Source: Chlorobium sp.
Lineage (GTDB): Bacteria; Bacteroidota; Chlorobiia; Chlorobiales; Chlorobiaceae
DNA length: 38,891 nt
Reading direction: 5' to 3'
Assembly: GCA_005862285.1 (NCBI GenBank)
Contig: SZXW01000005.1
Span: 1 to 38,891 of the forward strand
The translations under genes and the position numbers were made by a program. Below the pieces are notes generated by a model. It was given only the letters and a program-made list of their open reading frames with translations, was not told where the DNA came from and ran no database searches. Each line of letters starts with the position of its first letter. Positions within the stretch are counted from its first letter, which is position 1. Below are positions 9,918 to 37,877 of the stretch, in pieces.

Positions 9918-11624
9918 TCACTTCGATTCACGTTCTACGGTAGGTACGAAGTTTTTTGCCCTGCCTTCTCTCGGAAGAGCGAGAATTTCCCTCGAGCGGT
10001 CGAGCGCGTCGTCGATGTTGCCGAATATATTTTCTTTGCCGATCTCGTCGAAGAGTTCGAATTGCTGAAGAGCGAACAACGGCTGGGTATGTACACCCGA
10101 GAGAATCAGACGGGTACCGGTTTTTTTGCAGTCCTTGAGCAGCTCCTTTATCATGTTCAGGCCGGTGGCATCGATGGTCAGTACCCTGCGCATCCTGATG
10201 ATGCGGATTTTGGGCGCATTTTCAACGATATGCATGGCATCCCTGAACTTCGATGCGGCTCCGAAGAAAAACGGTCCGGTTATTTCGAAAACCTCGACAC
10301 CGTCGGGGACTTTCCTTGTCACGATTGTATTTGGGTCATCCTCTTCGTCACGGTCCTTGAGCTCATCGGTAACCACTCCGACATTGGCAAGTCCGGCCAT
10401 ACGCTGCATGAAGAGTATCACGGAGAGCAGCATGCCGATCTCGATGGCCAGGGTGAGATCGAAGACAACGGTAAGCGAGAAAGTGGTGAGAAGAACGATG
10501 ACGTCGCTTCTCGGGCTTTTCATAAGCTGCCGGAATACCTTGATTTCGCTCATGTTCCAGGATACGACGATGAGGATCGCCGCCAGTGCCGGCATGGGGA
10601 TCAGCTTTGCCCACCTGCCGAAGAGCATCATGATCAGGAGCAGCGTGACAGCATGTACAATACCTGCAACCGGCGTTCTTCCGCCGTTTTTTACGTTGGT
10701 TGCAGTTCGGGCAATTGCGCCGGTAACGGGAATGCCTCCGAAGAATGGAGTAATGAAGTTTGCCGCACCCTGTGCTATCAGCTCCATGTTTGATTTGTGC
10801 CTTCCTCCGATCATACCGTCAGCGACGACGGCTGAAAGCAGCGCTTCGATTGCTCCGAGCAAAGCGATCGTGGTCGCCGGCATGATGAGCTGGCGGATTG
10901 TCTGAAAGTCGAAAGAAGGAATGGACGGGGCAGGGATCATGGAAGGGATTTCGCCGAACCTCGATTCAATTGTCGGCACATCGAGGTGCAACAGATGAAC
11001 GGCGATGGTCGAGACGAGGATGGCAACGAGCGATCCGGGGATTTTCCGGTATACCTTTGGCCAGAAGACTATGACAAGCAGGGAAAAGATCCCTACCAGA
11101 AAACTTGAGAGGTGGAATGTCTGGATGTTGGACGCATAAACCGACCATTTTCCAACAAAATCGCCGGGAACGACGGCAATTTCGAGACCGAGGAAATCCT
11201 TGATCTGGCTTGAAAAAATGATTACGGCGATTCCGCTCGTGAAGCCCACGATGACGGGGTAGGGGATGAACTTGATCAGGGAGCCGAACTGGGCGAATCC
11301 CATCAGCATGAGGATGACGCCGGCCATCATGGTTGCAAGCAGCAGTCCGTTGATGCCATATTGCTGGACGATGCCGTAGAGAATGACGATAAAAGCTCCG
11401 GTCGGGCCGCCGATCTGCACCCTGCTGCCGCCGAGAAAGGAGACTATGAAGCCGCCGATAATTGCGGTGATGAGGCCTTTTTCAGGTGAAACGCCTGATG
11501 CGATTGCAAAAGCGATAGCAAGAGGGAGCGCCACGATGCCAACCATGATGCCTGCAACGACATCTTTCATGATCCGGTCTGGCTTGAGCTCGGGTAAAAC
11601 AGTAAAGAACTTGGGTTTGAACAT
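9918..11624 (-). CDS. SulP-family anion transporter with C-terminal STAS domain
   Basis: About 568 residues from the ATG at 11624, chosen because GAGG lies six bases upstream; an in-frame ATG at 11657 would add 11 residues. The membrane part has the family's repeated helices, with [32 protein letters not shown] and [16 protein letters not shown] cytoplasmic STAS domain follows from about residue 440 ([20 protein letters not shown], then [14 protein letters not shown]). SulP proteins carry sulfate, bicarbonate or other anions, usually with Na+ or H+. A sulfur-oxidising autotroph could use either anion, and sequence does not decide. It stands alone. An inverted TTTTACC/GGTAAAA pair lies upstream near 11693-11728. 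Confidence 0.92.
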
Positions 11625-11851
11625 TCTAAACCTCGTAATCTGTATCATGAAGAACATTTATCCTGCTCCGCAGAGCGGTTCTATATACCATTTTTACCTT
11701 GCTTTATCAATACAGCGGTAAAATCATTCATAAAAATCCGTATTGCGTCTTTTTTTCAGGTTTGCCTGATGATTTTTCATTCAATACTGTGCAGGTTTTC
11801 ATACCTTTATAAAGGGAAAAATAATTTTTCATTCATGAAGCCTCTCCGAAC

Positions 11852-31077: not shown

Positions 31078-31878
31078 ATGAGGTGTTATGTCCTGAGGTC
31101 ATTGATGATTTTTTTCTTTGTTACAAGTGTTTGCATATTATCCGGCTGCAGCAAGCGGGAAAATATTACAAACGGTGACCAGCTTGACGGGAAGGAATTT
31201 GCTGTTCTTGCAGGAAGTGTCTGCGACAAACTTGCACTGCAGAAATTTCCCAATGCAAGGTTCCAGTATTTCAATAGTGTCGCTGATGAGGTGCTTGCCC
31301 TTCAGTCAGGTAAAGTCGATGCCATTTCCCTTGATGAACCTATTCTCAGAGTGATAGCGGCAAGAACTCCGGAGTTGAAACTGCTGCCGGAACTTATATC
31401 CAGCGACCGGTATGGATATGCCGTCAGTCTCGCAAATCAGGAGCTGAAAGAGGAGATTGACCTGACGGTTAAAGAACTGAAGGCCAATGGAGCGTATAAT
31501 GAAATGCTTCACCGTTGGTTTTCCCGGAGCGGCAGACAGTCTGTGATGCCTGATATTCAGTCTGACGGAAAAAACGGTGTTTTGCGGTTGGGAACTGCAC
31601 CTGTTACCGAGCCCTTCTCCTATGTTGACGGGTCCGGAAACATTGTCGGGTTTGATATTGAAATGGCAAAACATGTCGCTCAAAGACTTCACAGGAATCT
31701 TGAAGTTGTAAATATGGATTTTGGTGCGTTGATTCCGTCACTTGCAGCTGGAAAAGTCGATATGATCGGGGCCTGTATCATCATTACTGACGAACGGGCA
31801 AAAAAAGTGCTGTTTTCTGAACCGTATTACACCGGAGGAATCGGTGTCATGGTCAGAGATCAGAAAACGGTTCAGTAA
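31078..31878 (+). CDS. Lipoprotein with circularly permuted family-3 solute-binding domain (copy 1)
   Basis: 266 residues. Residues 1-24 are a lipoprotein signal with lipobox LSGC (Cys24). Residues about 38-148 match the C-terminal portion of a family-3 binding protein (GKEFAVLAGSVCDKLA, VDAISLDEPIL, then ELKANGAYNEMLHRWF, the normal end). After a linker, residues 167-262 match the normal N-terminal half (LRLGTAPVTEPFSYVDG, GFDIEMAK, IITDERAKKVLFSEPYY). The order is therefore reversed relative to GlnH or HisJ. D86 and R240 fall at the positions that contact the amino and carboxyl groups of amino-acid ligands. It leads an apparent operon with the ATPase that follows, 90 bases away. Ligand unknown. 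Confidence 0.85.
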   Translation: MRCYVLRSLMIFFFVTSVCILSGCSKRENITNGDQLDGKEFAVLAGSVCDKLALQKFPNARFQYFNSVADEVLALQSGKVDAISLDEPILRVIAARTPELKLLPELISSDRYGYAVSLANQELKEEIDLTVKELKANGAYNEMLHRWFSRSGRQSVMPDIQSDGKNGVLRLGTAPVTEPFSYVDGSGNIVGFDIEMAKHVAQRLHRNLEVVNMDFGALIPSLAAGKVDMIGACIIITDERAKKVLFSEPYYTGGIGVMVRDQKTVQ

Positions 31879-31968: not shown

Positions 31969-33060
31969 ATGATAAAGATTGAACATCTATCAAAAAATTT
32001 CGGTTCTCTCTCCGTGCTAAGGGATATTTCAGTCGAAATCAAGGAAGGTGAAGTCATTTCGATCATAGGTCCTTCCGGAGCCGGTAAAAGTACGTTTCTC
32101 CGATGTATCAACCTTCTTGACCGACCAAGCAGCGGTTCAATATTGATAAAAGGGATCAATATCCTCGATCCGAAAATCGATGTGGCCAAAGTCAGACAGA
32201 AAATGAACATGGTTTTCCAGGCGTTCAATCTGTTTGCCCATATTTCTGTACTTGAAAACCTTACCATCGCCCCGATGAAGCTTCTCGGCAAAAGCCGGGA
32301 ATCTGCAGAGAAGAAAGCCCATGAACTTCTCAATCTTGTAGGTCTAAGTGATAAAGCCGGCTCATACCCTGACGAGCTTTCGGGTGGCCAGAAACAGCGC
32401 GTCGCGATTGCTCGATGTCTTGCAATGGAACCGGAGGTGATTTTATTTGATGAGCCGACCTCAGCGCTCGATCCGACAATGATCAACGAGGTGCTGTCCG
32501 TTATCCGCCGGCTTGCCCGACAGGGACTGACTATGCTGATTGTTACTCATGAATTGGATTTCGCGAAGGATGTTTCCTCACGGGTATTCTATCTGGACGA
32601 GGGGGGCATTTACGAGGACGGCACCCCCCGGCAAATCTTCGAAAATCCGCAAAAAGAAAAGACAAAGGCATTTATCAAAAAACAGGAAAGTTTTTATCAG
32701 CATATCGTTTCATCGAATTACGACCTTTATGCACTCATTGCCGAAGTGGACTGTTTCTGCAGCAGACTGATGGTAAATGTGCAATCACGAAAGAACCTTA
32801 TGGTTCTGATCGAAGAGGTGCTGCAGCTTTTCAGAAAGTCAACCTTATCGTTTCCGCTTGACATGACGGTCAACTACGAAGAAAAAACCGAAATGCTCGA
32901 GCTTCTGTTTGAAGCGCCTCCGGGTTCCGTCAACCCCATGCTTACTGAGTCCGGAGATAACGGTTCAGCTCTTCCGGCTATCGAATCCCGCCTGCAGAGC
33001 CAGGAGTACCGGCAACTTGGCGGAAGGAACAGATTGAGCCTCTATCTTAAAAAACCTTAA
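31969..33060 (+). CDS. Amino-acid-type ABC ATPase with degenerate RsbW-like C-terminal domain
   Basis: 363 residues, about 120 longer than a GlnQ-type ATPase. Walker A GPSGAGKST (34-42), Q-loop VFQAFNLF, signature LSGGQKQR (137-144), Walker B VILFDEP (157-163) and H-loop THE (193-195) are all intact. Residues about 248-360 resemble, by eye, the RsbW-like kinase encoded two genes downstream: YDLYALIAEV against EKLYLL, VLIEEVLQLF against LAVEEAFVNI, and a closing GRNRLSLYL against GSNVLTLKF. The kinase's Asn (N box) and DxG residues are replaced, so this tail probably does not bind ATP. It could be the docking site for the STAS protein or the kinase, which is inference. Confidence 0.88.
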   Translation: MIKIEHLSKNFGSLSVLRDISVEIKEGEVISIIGPSGAGKSTFLRCINLLDRPSSGSILIKGINILDPKIDVAKVRQKMNMVFQAFNLFAHISVLENLTIAPMKLLGKSRESAEKKAHELLNLVGLSDKAGSYPDELSGGQKQRVAIARCLAMEPEVILFDEPTSALDPTMINEVLSVIRRLARQGLTMLIVTHELDFAKDVSSRVFYLDEGGIYEDGTPRQIFENPQKEKTKAFIKKQESFYQHIVSSNYDLYALIAEVDCFCSRLMVNVQSRKNLMVLIEEVLQLFRKSTLSFPLDMTVNYEEKTEMLELLFEAPPGSVNPMLTESGDNGSALPAIESRLQSQEYRQLGGRNRLSLYLKKP

Positions 33061-33076: not shown

Positions 33077-33415
33077 ATGATCATACAGACTGTCAGAGAA
33101 TCCGCGGCTATGGTTGTCTCACTTTCAGGAAGACTGGATACCGTTACCGCACCCGACTACGAAAAAAAATTCGATGAACTGATCTCCAGGGAGGAAATCA
33201 ATTTCGTTGTCGATTTCGACAAGCTTGAATACATAAGCAGCGCCGGTCTAAGGGTGATTCTTGCCACGTCAAGGCGTATCAAGGGTAAAAACGGAAAAAT
33301 CCACCTTGCCAATATCAGCGGAAATGTAAAGGAAGTTTTCGAAATGTCAGGTTTTGCAGGTATTTTTCCGGTTTACGGCACAGTTGCCGAGGCACTGAAA
33401 ATGATAACAGGGTGA
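33077..33415 (+). CDS. STAS-domain protein (anti-anti-sigma / RsbV-like)
   Basis: 112 residues, one STAS domain: VVSLSGRLDTVTAPDYEK at the N-terminus, VVDFDKLEYISSAGLRVIL in the middle, and a C-terminal GTVAEALKMI. Ser55 in the ISSAGLR loop aligns with the serine phosphorylated in RsbV and SpoIIAA. A CAGGGA ribosome site precedes the ATG. Its stop is immediately followed by the ATG of the kinase-like gene, implying coupled synthesis of a STAS/kinase pair. Lying inside an ABC operon, it may control the transporter or a sigma factor; no sigma factor gene is in the operon. Confidence 0.88.
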   Translation: MIIQTVRESAAMVVSLSGRLDTVTAPDYEKKFDELISREEINFVVDFDKLEYISSAGLRVILATSRRIKGKNGKIHLANISGNVKEVFEMSGFAGIFPVYGTVAEALKMITG

Positions 33416-33844
33416 ATGACGTGTTCACTGTCTGAAATCACGATATCGGCAGATCTCGAAAAGCTTTATCTATTGAACGGATTTATCGTGCACTACGCTG
33501 AAGCTTCGGGTTGCGATATGACCGGAATAAACAGGGTTCTCCTTGCTGTCGAGGAAGCTTTTGTAAATATCTGCAGATACGCATACCCCGGGCACAAAGG
33601 CGAAGTCACTGTTTCGTGCTGTCTGGAAAACGGATCACTGGTAGTTGTATTTGCCGATAAAGGAATTCCGTTCAACATGCTCTCTGTTCCCGATCCCGAT
33701 ATATCAATTGGTATGGATGAACGATCTCCCGGAGGTCTCGGGATACATTTCATACGGAAGCTGACAAGCAGTGTCTTGTACAGCCGGGAAAACGGAAGCA
33801 ATGTTCTGACGCTGAAATTCAGCTGTATCAGGACAACAGAATGA
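33416..33844 (+). CDS. RsbW-like serine kinase / anti-sigma factor (HATPase_c_2)
   Basis: 142 residues. N box AVEEAFVNICRYAY has E46-E47 and N51, the G1 box is ADKGIPFN (D81, G83) and the G2 region SPGGLGIHFI, so all nucleotide-binding motifs of RsbW/SpoIIAB-type kinases are present. ENGSNVLTLKF closes the fold. The ATG directly follows the STAS stop codon, so translation is coupled. Family members phosphorylate a STAS partner and bind a sigma factor or other target. No PP2C phosphatase that would reverse this is found in the window. Confidence 0.88.
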   Translation: MTCSLSEITISADLEKLYLLNGFIVHYAEASGCDMTGINRVLLAVEEAFVNICRYAYPGHKGEVTVSCCLENGSLVVVFADKGIPFNMLSVPDPDISIGMDERSPGGLGIHFIRKLTSSVLYSRENGSNVLTLKFSCIRTTE

Positions 33845-33891
33845 ATCATACCTGATTAATTACAAACACAATCATGAAAAACGAGGAACCC

Positions 33892-34677
33892 ATGAAAAAC
33901 CTTTTTTCCCCACGGATCAGCCTTGTCTTTGTTCTTTCACTATTCATCATGCTCACCGGTTGTGAAAAAAGGGAGAAAATCACTCGTCTCAAGCAGCTTT
34001 CCGGAAAGGAGTTTGCCATACCGACAGGGACGGTTGCCGATAAACTGGTGCTTTCGAAAATACCTGATGCAAAATTCAAATATTTCAACAGCGTCATGGA
34101 TGCAGCACTTGCCGTTAAAACGGGCAAAGCCGATGCGGCAGCATATGATGAACCTATCCTGAAAAACATAGCGGCCAAAAACAGCGGTATTTCTGTTCTG
34201 TCGGAAATGATCACCAACGACAATTACGGTTTTGCTGTCCGCCTCGATGACAAAAAACTGAAAGATGCCATCGATTCCACCGTCAAGGAGCTGAAACAGA
34301 GCGGGACCTATGACGACATGATGCACCGGTGGTTTCCTAAAACAGGTAATCCTGCCCCGATGCCGGTTATAACCTCGGATGGCACCAAAGGCGTCATCAG
34401 GTTCGGCACCGCTTCGGTAACCGAGCCGTTTTCCTTTGTCGACGGTTCCGGAAAAGTGGTGGGATTTGATATCGAACTTGCTTCATACGTTGCGAAAAAA
34501 ATGGGCAGGAAGCTTGAAATCGTCAATATGGATTTCGGCGGTATGATCCCTGCACTGATTACCGGCAAAGTCGATATGATCGGAGCCTGCATAACCATCA
34601 CCGGCGAACGCTCCAAACAGGTACTGTTTTCCGATCCTTATTATATCGGGGGAATAGCGGCGATGGTCAGGGACTGA
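33892..34677 (+). CDS. Lipoprotein with circularly permuted family-3 solute-binding domain (copy 2)
   Basis: 261 residues from the ATG at 33892, preferred over 33874 because GAGGA lies just upstream and a better signal peptide results. The lipobox is LTGC (Cys24). The layout is the same as copy 1: the lobe-2 segment comes first (SGKEFAIPTGTVADKL, ADAAAYDEPIL, ending LKQSGTYDDMMHRWF), then the normal N-terminal half (IRFGTASVTEPFSFVDG, GFDIELASYVAKKMG, ITGERSKQVLFSDPYY). D86 is kept. The two copies are clearly paralogous, separated by the ATPase and switch genes. It is likely to deliver ligand to, or signal to, the fused permeases downstream. Confidence 0.85.
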   Translation: MKNLFSPRISLVFVLSLFIMLTGCEKREKITRLKQLSGKEFAIPTGTVADKLVLSKIPDAKFKYFNSVMDAALAVKTGKADAAAYDEPILKNIAAKNSGISVLSEMITNDNYGFAVRLDDKKLKDAIDSTVKELKQSGTYDDMMHRWFPKTGNPAPMPVITSDGTKGVIRFGTASVTEPFSFVDGSGKVVGFDIELASYVAKKMGRKLEIVNMDFGGMIPALITGKVDMIGACITITGERSKQVLFSDPYYIGGIAAMVRD

Positions 34678-34697: not shown

Positions 34698-36230
34698 ATG
34701 AAGCAGATAACGCGATCTATATTCACAGTTTTCCTGTCGCTTTTCGTTCTTGCTTCCTGTAGCGGGAGGCATGATGTTCAAAGCAGGCAGGGTAAACCCC
34801 TGTATGCTTCGGTAGAAGATGTGGCAGCCGGACGTATCGGTGTGCTGCTCGGTTCGACACACGACCAGTATGCAAGGAAAAACTTCACCAGGGCCACAAT
34901 ACTGGAGTATAAATCGCTGCCTGACCTTATAATGGCAGTGAAAACCGGAAAGGCCGATGCCGGTATCTACAATTCCGTTCAACTTCCGGAACTGCTTCAT
35001 GAGCAGAGTGAGCTCGGCATTTTGGGGAAACCGCTTTTTTCCTCCAGTACTGCCATGGGTTTCAAAAAGGGTGACAAGGAACTCCGTATGTCGTTCAACA
35101 AGTTCCTTGCAGAGATTCGCCAGAATGGTGTGTATGACGATATGGTCCGCAGGTGGATGAAAAACCGGGATACCCATATGCCAGATATAAGGAGCAATGA
35201 GAAGGCGAAAAGGACGCTTGTTGTCGGAAATGTTTTTGATATGGGTTTGCCGTTTACAGCTGTAAGCGACAACAGGCTCGTTGGTTTCAATGTCGAACTG
35301 ATTGACAGGTTCGGGGTGTATCTTGGAAAGAATGTCGTTTATCGGAATCTTGAGTTCGGCAACCTTATCGCATCGCTTTCAACCGGTAAAATCGATATGA
35401 TCGGATCGGTGCTGGCAATCACGCCGGAGCGGGCAAAAAGCATCGATTTTTCCGATCCCTATTTTGATGCGGATGCATGCATGTTCGCACTCAGGAAAAA
35501 TATCGCGGTACCGGGGGTTGATTCCGGAAAAACGGATAACAGTGATGTCCCGACATCGTTTTTCTCCGGCATTGTCGAGAGCTTCAGGAACAATATCATC
35601 CGGGAGAACCGCTGGAAGCTCATAGTGGAGGGGCTCCAGGTCACGATAGTGATCTCCTTTTTGTCGGCTCTCCTTGGAACATTTTTAGGCGGTTTTATCT
35701 GTCTGCTGAGAATGTCGAAAAACATGGTGCTCCAGTCGGCAGGGAGAACATACATAACTATCATGCGGGGCATACCCGTTCTGGTTGTACTGATGCTGAT
35801 TTTCTATGTCGTGTTCGCTTCGGTTAACATAGATCCGGTTTTTGTGTCGGTCATAGCATTCGGGATGAATTTTGCAGCATATGCGGCGGAGATATATCGT
35901 GCAGGCATAGAGAGTATCGACCGGGGGCAGACGGAAGCAGGTGTCGCAATGGGGTTTACAAAAGTGCAGATCTTCCTTGATATTATCCTGCCTCAGACGG
36001 TCATGCGGATCCTGCCGGTTTACAAGGGGGAGTTTATCACCCTGGTAAAGATGACCTCTATTGTCGGCTACATCGCTGTTCAGGACCTTACAAAGGCAAG
36101 CGACATCATCCGGAGCCGGACTTTCGACGCTTTTTTCCCGATTATCATGGTAGCCGTTCTTTATTTTCTTATTTCCTGGACTCTAATGCTTTTGATCGAC
36201 CGTCTTGAAGTTCGGTCATTCCAGAGCTGA
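34698..36230 (+). CDS. Permuted solute-binding domain fused to ABC permease (copy 1)
   Basis: 510 residues. Lipobox LASC (Cys21). The permuted binding domain spans about 35-265 (AAGRIGVLLGSTHDQYA, ADAGIYNSVQL, VYDDMVRRWM, then LVVGNVFDMGLPF, GFNVEL and ITPERAKSIDFSDPYF). A permease domain covers about 300-500 with the EAA loop YRAGIESIDRGQTEAGVAMG and RGIPVLVVLMLIFYVVFAS. The permease is of the HisM/GlnP amino-acid type. Position 92 is Asn where the free binding proteins have Asp86, and GFN replaces GFD, so ligand binding may be changed or lost. It is 20 bases after copy 2 of the binding protein. Two such fusions could form the permease dimer. Confidence 0.88.
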   Translation: MKQITRSIFTVFLSLFVLASCSGRHDVQSRQGKPLYASVEDVAAGRIGVLLGSTHDQYARKNFTRATILEYKSLPDLIMAVKTGKADAGIYNSVQLPELLHEQSELGILGKPLFSSSTAMGFKKGDKELRMSFNKFLAEIRQNGVYDDMVRRWMKNRDTHMPDIRSNEKAKRTLVVGNVFDMGLPFTAVSDNRLVGFNVELIDRFGVYLGKNVVYRNLEFGNLIASLSTGKIDMIGSVLAITPERAKSIDFSDPYFDADACMFALRKNIAVPGVDSGKTDNSDVPTSFFSGIVESFRNNIIRENRWKLIVEGLQVTIVISFLSALLGTFLGGFICLLRMSKNMVLQSAGRTYITIMRGIPVLVVLMLIFYVVFASVNIDPVFVSVIAFGMNFAAYAAEIYRAGIESIDRGQTEAGVAMGFTKVQIFLDIILPQTVMRILPVYKGEFITLVKMTSIVGYIAVQDLTKASDIIRSRTFDAFFPIIMVAVLYFLISWTLMLLIDRLEVRSFQS

Positions 36231-36317
36231 GCCGAATGAAATTTACTGTCGTCTCGTGATGATTTACTCGGAAAGAAGGAAGCGCTGTGAATTAGCACAT
36301 TGTTCAACATGTTATCA

Positions 36318-37877
36318 ATGAAACGATTTTTTCGTGCCTTGGCTGCTGCCTGCATGTTTGCGTTCATTCTCGCTTCCTGCGTCAGCCAGAATGGAAAGGG
36401 AGGTTCAGCAGAGAATACAGGGTATGCATCTGCCGATGACCTGAAAAACAGGCGCATAGCTGTGATGCTTGGCTCGGTCCACGACCGGTACGCGAAAAAA
36501 AACTATCCGGACGCCACGATCCTGCAATACAAATCTCCTACCGACCTGGTGGTTGCCGTAAAAACAGGGAAGGCCGATGCGGCCATCTATACCTATGACG
36601 AACTTGCCGAGGTTCTGAAACAGCATACCGATCTCGGACTTCTGGGCAAACCGCTTTTTGCGACGCCTGTGGCCATGGGATTTCACAAGGGAGATGATGA
36701 GCTGCGGGTTTCATTCAACCGTTTTCTGAAGCAAATCCGGGATAACGATGTGTATGACGATATGATGCAGCGGTGGATAAAAAGCGGCAGCACGGTTATG
36801 CCGGATATTCCTTCGGCCGGTAAATCCACGGGGACGCTTGTTGTCGGCATGGTAAACGATAACGGACTTCCGTTCACGGCGGTCAAGGACAATAAACTTG
36901 TCGGTTTCAATATCGAGCTTCTCGACAGGTTCGCGGCTTCAATCGGCAAGAACGTGACCTACCAGAACCTTGAGTTCGGCAGTCTTATAGCGGCGCTCGA
37001 AAGCAGAAAAATCGATATGATCGGTACGGTCATGTCGGTAACTGACGAGAGGAAGAAAAACGTCGATTTTTCCGAGCCCTATTATGCACAGGATGTCTAT
37101 GCGTTTACGCTCAAATCGAATATCGTATCCCCCGGGAATAGCACGGCCCATGAGGCCCGGTTCCGGATGCCTCCCTTTCTTGACGGCATCATCAGCAGTT
37201 TCCAGAGCAACATCGTCCAGGAGAACCGCTGGCGCCTGATCATCGACGGTCTCTGGGTAACGGTGGTTATCTCGTTCCTCTCGACCATGTGGGGAACGGT
37301 GCTCGGCGGATTCATCTGTTTCATGCGCATGTCGCACGTAAAGCCGCTTGAAATGGCGGCGAAGTTCTACATTTCGATCATGCGCGGCACGCCGGTGCTC
37401 GTGGTTCTCATGCTGATCTTCTATGTGGTATTCGCATCGGTGAACATCGATCCGGTCATTGTGGCTGTGATCGCCTTCGGACTGAATTTCGGTGCCTATG
37501 CATCGGAAATCTACCGGGCGGGGATCGAGAGCATCGACCGGGGACAGACCGAAGCCGGCATCGCGATGGGGTTCACCAAAGTGCAGACTTTCCGGTACAT
37601 CATTCTGCCGCAGACGATCATAAGGATCCTGCCTGTTTACAAGGGAGAGTTCATATCGCTGGTGAAAATGACCTCGATCGTTGGTTACATAGCCGTGCAG
37701 GACCTCACAAAGGCGAGCGACATCATCCGGAGCCGGACCTTCGACGCTTTTTTCCCGATCATCATGGTTGCTGTGCTCTACTATCTGATTTCATGGTCGC
37801 TGCTGCTCTTCATCGGACACATGGAAAAGACGATCGATCCGAGGCTCAAGCGCAGAGCAGCGACGCAACAGGCATGA
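36318..37877 (+). CDS. Permuted solute-binding domain fused to ABC permease (copy 2)
   Basis: 519 residues from the ATG at 36318; an ATG at 36309 and a TTG at 36300 are alternatives, and none has a close ribosome site. The signal ends in lipobox LASC (Cys21). The order is the same as in copy 1: permuted binding domain (NRRIAVMLGSVHDRYAKK, ADAAIYTYDEL, VYDDMMQRWI, LVVGMVNDNGLPF, GFNIELLDRF, VTDERKKNVDFSEPYY), then the permease with YRAGIESIDRGQTEAGIAMG. Position 92 is Thr in place of the ligand-contact Asp. The permease halves of the two fusions are nearly the same sequence, pointing to a tandem duplication. Last gene of the operon; 88 bases separate it from copy 1. Confidence 0.87.
   Translation: MKRFFRALAAACMFAFILASCVSQNGKGGSAENTGYASADDLKNRRIAVMLGSVHDRYAKKNYPDATILQYKSPTDLVVAVKTGKADAAIYTYDELAEVLKQHTDLGLLGKPLFATPVAMGFHKGDDELRVSFNRFLKQIRDNDVYDDMMQRWIKSGSTVMPDIPSAGKSTGTLVVGMVNDNGLPFTAVKDNKLVGFNIELLDRFAASIGKNVTYQNLEFGSLIAALESRKIDMIGTVMSVTDERKKNVDFSEPYYAQDVYAFTLKSNIVSPGNSTAHEARFRMPPFLDGIISSFQSNIVQENRWRLIIDGLWVTVVISFLSTMWGTVLGGFICFMRMSHVKPLEMAAKFYISIMRGTPVLVVLMLIFYVVFASVNIDPVIVAVIAFGLNFGAYASEIYRAGIESIDRGQTEAGIAMGFTKVQTFRYIILPQTIIRILPVYKGEFISLVKMTSIVGYIAVQDLTKASDIIRSRTFDAFFPIIMVAVLYYLISWSLLLFIGHMEKTIDPRLKRRAATQQA

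Follow-up and report, generated by a model that had tools for sequence, protein, structure and literature searches.

The window (our term for the whole stretch of DNA analysed, 38,891 nucleotides) is an entire contig, G000:C15, of a 2.6-Mb Chlorobium genome, and the named organisms closest to it belong to Chlorobiaceae. In its last quarter, the ATPase of a GlnQ-type amino-acid ABC transporter carries a C-terminal extension that is a degenerate RsbW/SpoIIAB-type domain. The next two genes encode a STAS protein and an RsbW-like serine kinase, and genes for substrate-binding proteins, two of them fused to a permease, flank this set (Table 1).

Table 1. Features of the importer and partner-switch genes in the window
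Feature	Position	Strand	Size and evidence
GlnQ-type amino-acid ABC transporter ATPase gene with C-terminal pseudo-RsbW domain	31969..33060	+	363 aa
ABC ATPase domain	31969..32685	+	239 residues; Walker A, Walker B and signature motifs intact; PF00005 6.6e-37; solved relatives include ArtP
Degenerate RsbW/SpoIIAB-fold domain (the extension)	32686..33057	+	124 residues; profile, fold and model
YDLYALIAEVDCFCSR, end of a loop and helix alpha1 of the extension	32719..32766	+	most strongly conserved segment of the domain across the family; entropy 0.5 bit
N-box remnant EEVLQL in the extension	32812..32829	+	both Glu in 40/40; Asn replaced, by Leu in the window copy
G1 remnant EAPPG in the extension	32911..32925	+	Asp lost
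G2 remnant NGSAL in the extension	32959..32973	+	GGxG lost
STAS gene, anti-sigma-antagonist type	33077..33415	+	112 aa; PF01740 1.9e-20; TIGR00377 1e-23
STAS phospho-acceptor motif YISSAGL	predicted Ser55 at 33239-33241	+	SS[AT]GL in 28/28 linked STAS proteins examined
RsbW-like serine kinase gene	33416..33844	+	142 aa; retains intact N, G1 and G2 boxes; PF13581 2.3e-24
Substrate-binding protein, permuted halves	31078..31878	+	PF00497 2.1e-34 at residues 169-264
Substrate-binding protein, permuted halves	33874..34677	+	comparison with solved binding proteins
Substrate-binding domain (permuted halves) fused to permease	34698..36230	+	510 aa; PF00497 and PF00528
Substrate-binding domain (permuted halves) fused to permease	36300..37877	+	525 aa; PF00497 and PF00528

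The part of the ATPase that precedes the extension is intact. The GlnQ profile (NCBIfam) matches residues 1-238 at 2.1e-90, with a score under the equivalog cut-off, and the polar amino-acid ABC_tran domain has the Walker A, signature and Walker B motifs of a GlnQ/HisP-type ATPase. The system shares a polar amino-acid ATPase with the GlnPQ and ArtPQ importers, and GlnP also has a binding domain fused to the permease. Unlike these importers, the system in the window adds the C-terminal pseudo-RsbW domain and has the halves of its binding domains in permuted order.

An earlier reading, made from the sequence alone, had proposed that an intact ATPase is followed here by a pseudo-RsbW domain that parallels the kinase encoded downstream. 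(About 356 bases separate the final codon of the extension from the start of the RsbW gene.) A comparison restricted to the extension and the RsbW of the window shows no similarity above chance: BLASTP between the two gave zero alignments with E up to 100, and the extension by itself had no match in Pfam; NCBIfam gave nothing useful either. Once orthologues are used, the assignment is secure. The Pfam family HATPase_c_2 is matched by 37 of the 40 orthologous extensions (best 7e-9, in a wider set) and by 7 of the 12 extensions from the genus. When a profile of the extensions was aligned to a profile of the linked RsbW proteins with hhalign, P was 1.1e-14 over 116 colinear columns; as a negative control, the STAS profile against the extension profile gave P of 0.24. 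The parallels pointed out in the sequence-only reading (EEV and EEA, FEAPPG and FADKG, GRNRLSLYL and GSNVLTLKF) all fall in register in this alignment. When ten members were scanned, HATPase_c_2 barely reached the Pfam cut-off in one, so the architecture may already show in databases for some proteins.

Structure prediction agrees. From a 40-sequence alignment, AlphaFold2 gave a model of the window's extension with pLDDT 87.7 and pTM 0.82, and the top 17 fold matches of this model in the PDB are all SpoIIAB, RsbW or UsfX. VIA-align Z scores are 13.1 for UsfX, 12.5 for RsbW and 12.0 for SpoIIAB, versus about 7 for histidine-kinase domains. The folds that would have spoken against a pseudo-RsbW domain (ACT/NIL or OB) are absent from this result, and on profile, fold and motifs that claim is borne out. 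A sequence-profile search of the PDB with the extension family gave no anti-sigma match, and only the fold comparison recovers these kinases.

The extension shares with RsbW, SpoIIAB and UsfX the whole fold, the colinear profile, the N-box glutamate and the conserved alpha1 face. It differs from them in being fused to an ABC ATPase and in having lost, in all members, the Asn, the Asp and the GGxG. The sequence-only reading had noticed in the window copy that the Asn and Asp needed for ATP are missing, and this holds for the family: the N-box Asn is found at or near its position (46-49) in 0 of 40 extensions and the G1 Asp at the aligned position in 0 of 40, versus 19 of 19 linked RsbW proteins for each. 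Most extensions have [DE][LI]G in place of GGxG, which all 19 linked kinases keep. What the extensions do keep are both N-box glutamates, invariant in 40 of 40. The second of these, four residues ahead of the lost Asn, corresponds in the N-box register to Glu49 of RsbW. In a crystal structure, Glu49 touches the phospho-acceptor Ser56 of RsbV (PMC7340262). In the same structure, alpha1 and beta1 form the dimer face of RsbW, and RsbV is bound by alpha1-alpha3 (PMC7340262).

The pattern of conservation in the extension is the reverse of that in the linked kinase. In the extension, entropy is 0.5 bit in alpha1, 1.0-2.0 bits elsewhere in the fold and 2.0 bits in the region of the ATP lid; in the linked RsbW proteins, it is 1.26 bits in alpha1 and about 0.7 bits in the ATP boxes. 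Against its closest orthologue, the window's extension has a dN/dS of 0.27 (one pair, NG86) and is thus under purifying selection. It is also the most divergent member of the family, with 38% identity to relatives whose ATPase parts are 77% identical, and it has evolved much faster than the other extensions.

Of 98 genomes in the class Chlorobia, 40 encode the extension (one of the 40 is a weak partial match). It also occurs in Thermodesulfobacteriota, Pseudomonadota, Bacillota, Gemmatimonadota and Ignavibacteriota, as well as on single contigs assigned to other phyla; metagenome bins among these carriers may be misassigned. Named isolates with the extension belong to Methylobacter, Methylovulum, Nitrosomonas communis, Trichlorobacter and Pelotomaculum. 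Among cultured carriers, Methylobacter tundripaludum and Nitrosomonas communis have STAS as well. A plasmid of Selenomonas ruminantium encodes a full-length homologue, which is annotated merely as an amino-acid ABC ATPase.

All the extensions, whatever their phylum, group together as a single clade (100/100) in a phylogeny of the fold, and every intact RsbW group that we examined falls outside it. The idea that the domain was captured from the neighbouring kinase is therefore not supported: the linked kinase is only slightly nearer to the extension in profile score (best 28 bits) than the unlinked U1 group (best 23 bits). Because all extensions form one clade separate from intact RsbW, they point to a single old fusion rather than to a window copy newly taken from its neighbour, and the joining of ATPase and extension was probably one ancient event. 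We did consider a fresh derivation of the window extension from the adjacent kinase, and the clade placement speaks against it. A topology that holds the extension and the linked kinase together was not rejected (p-AU 0.29).

A frequent gene order in relatives is an NMT1-type binding protein, a dCache-HAMP-SpoIIE (PP2C) phosphatase, a binding-protein/permease, the ATPase with its extension, STAS and RsbW. We counted neighbours at 53 loci whose flanks extend 5.5 kb or more on the upstream side and 1.5 kb or more on the downstream side. PP2C, STAS and RsbW are all present at 15 of these, so that a complete partner-switching module (a PP2C phosphatase, a phosphorylatable STAS protein and RsbW encoded together) recurs beside this ATPase. 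Another three loci have PP2C and STAS, four have PP2C alone and two have STAS alone. At 10 there is a histidine kinase in the flank and no PP2C or STAS, and 19 have none of these genes. Thus at least one of PP2C and STAS is adjacent at 24 of the 53 loci, from Chlorobiota, Thermodesulfobacteriota, Pseudomonadota and Bacillota, and neither is at 29. STAS lies beside an extension-bearing ATPase in Ignavibacteriota as well. Within the class Chlorobia, a specific STAS subfamily occurs in 15 genomes, all 15 of which have the extension (hypergeometric P of 2e-7, not corrected for kinship).

The linkage is patchy. In at least eight genomes that carry the extension, neither a SpoIIE match nor a related STAS was found at the thresholds used. 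On the tree, the linkage to STAS is scattered and needs 15 changes. We therefore rejected a single ancestral state in favour of several losses or gains.

Two observations concern the loci that depart from the common order. At eight Methylobacter- or Nitrosomonas-type loci, RsbW follows STAS in the opposite orientation; five of these antiparallel RsbW proteins were aligned, and they are a different subgroup, with D-x-A and not D-x-G, that barely matches the extension (P of 0.016). And at three cassettes without PP2C, STAS or RsbW, a hybrid histidine kinase gene lies directly 3' of the ATPase.

The genome of the window has two cassettes. The one in the window encodes STAS and RsbW without a phosphatase, and the other (G000:C1, 832-837 kb) encodes PP2C and a second STAS without RsbW. 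The dCache-PP2C phosphatase that the window cassette misses is thus found in the second cassette (L142:3925-10678, at about 830-837 kb of G000:C1), and in a near relative the second copy of the cassette has no recognisable STAS. From these contents, the parts of the switch are split between loci. The genome also has a STAS gene in a module that is not linked to the importer, at about 121-123 kb of G000:C1. (The two ATPase paralogues of this genome, at 31969-33060 of the window and at L142:9201-10289, are 75% identical in the ATPase part and 34% identical in the extension.) Among sigma factors with region 3, to which our search was confined (ECF factors fall outside it), the genome encodes only an RpoD-like protein and no SigB/F/G-type factor. 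RsbW therefore has no client of the SigB/F/G type here.

At one locus in a relative (L025), the extension and STAS share one frame, with a lone TAG between them. We modelled the two together with AlphaFold2, reading the TAG as glycine purely as a tether and using 60 aligned rows. The model has pLDDT 92.6 and pTM 0.83, with low confidence in the linker alone; these values come from one run on the relative, and the tether may itself favour contact. By our estimate, a pTM of about 0.55 would be expected for two domains of this size placed without relation to each other, and on that basis the relative placement of the extension and STAS appears to be predicted with confidence. Foldseek on the tethered model returned matches to single-domain chains only, and so gave no comparison of the arrangement with the SpoIIAA-SpoIIAB complex. 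The sequence-only reading saw the extension as a binding platform that physically links the transporter to the switch. This is plausible, and it is supported by the operons in several phyla, the tethered model, the conservation of alpha1 and the lack of a SigB/F/G-type sigma factor; the extension also occurs in genomes without a recognisable switch, and the link itself stays an inference.

In our proposal, to which we give a probability of roughly 55%, the importer is a target of partner switching by virtue of its extension, a catalytically dead domain with the RsbW fold. The proposal builds on features that were computed directly, namely the fold, the family-wide loss of the ATP ligands, purifying selection, the recurrent operon, the intact motifs of RsbW and the intact serine of STAS. 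On the ATPase dimer, two extensions would pair via alpha1 and beta1, as in RsbW, and unphosphorylated STAS would dock on the extension as SpoIIAA does on SpoIIAB. Since the extension would not bind ATP, it could not phosphorylate and release STAS. Instead, the free RsbW kinase would phosphorylate STAS and so remove it from the extension, and the dCache phosphatase, sensing a periplasmic ligand, would restore it. Occupancy by STAS would then set the activity of the ATPase dimer, with STAS acting as either an activator or an inhibitor. The full scheme, in which a dead RsbW domain was fused once, long ago, and serves as a dock for STAS, and in which the dCache-PP2C sensor and the RsbW kinase set import post-translationally and independently of sigma factors in at least four phyla, we regard as about an even bet.

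The strongest objection comes from the genomes without the switch and the 29 loci with neither PP2C nor STAS: STAS cannot be the sole reason that the extension is kept. The divergence of the window's own extension also counts against the proposal, as does the origin of the complex model in one tethered run on a relative. The extension must have a basic role of its own, most likely that of pairing the two copies of the ATPase by means of the conserved dimer face known from RsbW, and the switch was coupled onto this function, or lost from it, in different lineages. This raises the possibility that the extension is only a dimerisation or autoregulatory domain, like the C-terminal domains of MetN or MalK: a dead RsbW dimer would join the subunits or act as a sensor, and STAS, RsbW and PP2C would be optional companions in some lineages. 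The retention of the extension in at least eight genomes without recognisable STAS or PP2C fits this, as does the patchy linkage on the tree. The best-conserved element, alpha1, belongs to the homodimer face of RsbW, and the association of nucleotide-binding domains is what the C-terminal domains of ABC ATPases generally affect (PMC7367683). Yet dimerisation would not explain why PP2C, STAS and RsbW recur in several phyla beside exactly this subfamily of ATPases, nor why the tethered STAS model is confident. As a complete account we think it somewhat unlikely, and the two functions can coexist in one extension.

We also considered that information might flow the other way, with the transporter as the sensor: the extension would hold or free STAS (or RsbW) according to the state of transport, and free STAS would act elsewhere. 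A dead kinase domain could sequester STAS equally well in this direction, and the 10 loci with a histidine kinase in place of the PP2C set hint that the transporter may be a general component of signalling circuits. However, many of these histidine kinases are several kilobases away and may be unrelated. Furthermore, the cassette has no conserved gene for an alternative output, the genome has no SigB/F/G-type sigma factor, and the dedicated dCache-PP2C sensor upstream suggests that the input comes from elsewhere. Reversed flow thus seems improbable. We give almost no credence to the idea that the extension is a known regulatory domain of ABC transporters (NIL/ACT, TOBE or CBS) or that the resemblance is due to chance or decay. 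The window's own extension does lack a Pfam match, but in Pfam none of the 40 members matches NIL/ACT, TOBE or CBS (there are stray weak matches to other families), as compared to 37 of 40 for HATPase_c_2; the anti-sigma kinases are the top PDB matches, with a clear gap to the rest; and the extension is under purifying selection.

A close parallel to STAS docking on the extension is MlaFB, in which the STAS protein MlaB sits directly on the ABC ATPase MlaF, whose C-terminal extension is short (about 25 residues) and swaps between subunits (PMC7367683). In the PDB, the authors of that study saw no further pairing of a STAS protein with an ABC protein, and they left open whether phosphorylation plays a part (PMC7367683). 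In the window, too, a STAS protein is encoded beside an ABC ATPase and is probably bound to it. In contrast to MlaFB, the proposed dock is a folded RsbW-fold domain of 124 residues, and the operon includes an intact kinase and, in relatives, PP2C. The window STAS matches the MlaB family (NCBIfam) at only 0.02, and its best match is to anti-sigma antagonists.

Partner switching is known mostly for releasing sigma factors. The output of SiaABCD is SiaD, a diguanylate cyclase. The SypA/SypE, RbaV, HmpV and SiaABCD systems, which have targets other than sigma factors, share with the cassette a phosphatase, a STAS protein, an RsbW-type kinase and sensor domains (PMC8256260). The targets of SypA/SypE, RbaV and HmpV are unknown (PMC8256260), whereas the candidate target in our system is a transporter that carries a dead kinase domain. 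Several members with unknown targets are listed in a review of STAS-only proteins, from which the term ABC is absent (PMC8256260). Our literature search, whose coverage largely excluded subscription journals, found no earlier report of a link or a fusion between a transporter and a partner switch.

Among green sulfur bacteria, and in many further phyla, the ATPase of an importer ends in a dead kinase fold, often beside a complete phosphate switch. This suggests that a kind of switch normally associated with gene expression acts directly on nutrient import. If our proposal is correct, the dead kinase domain shows directly how a partner switch acts on a transporter, and STAS proteins have a second route, besides MlaFB, for controlling ABC transporters. 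With the kinase, phosphatase and STAS encoded together, the possibility of phosphorylation that was raised for MlaFB could be tested directly in these systems.

In the binding protein at 33874-34674, residues 40-155 correspond to the C-terminal half of solved binding proteins (6svf and 4zv1) and residues 171-266 to the N-terminal half. The fusion protein encoded from 34698 has the same swapped order. The binding protein at 33874-34674 also gives a single unbroken alignment to residues 97-324 of a chain with tandem domains (6h30). The swapped halves are either a circular permutation that arose naturally or the remainder of tandem binding domains. Elsewhere in the window, an open reading frame at 9921-11657 (579 residues) has a STAS domain of its own; it is probably a SulP-type permease that is unrelated to the importer cassette.
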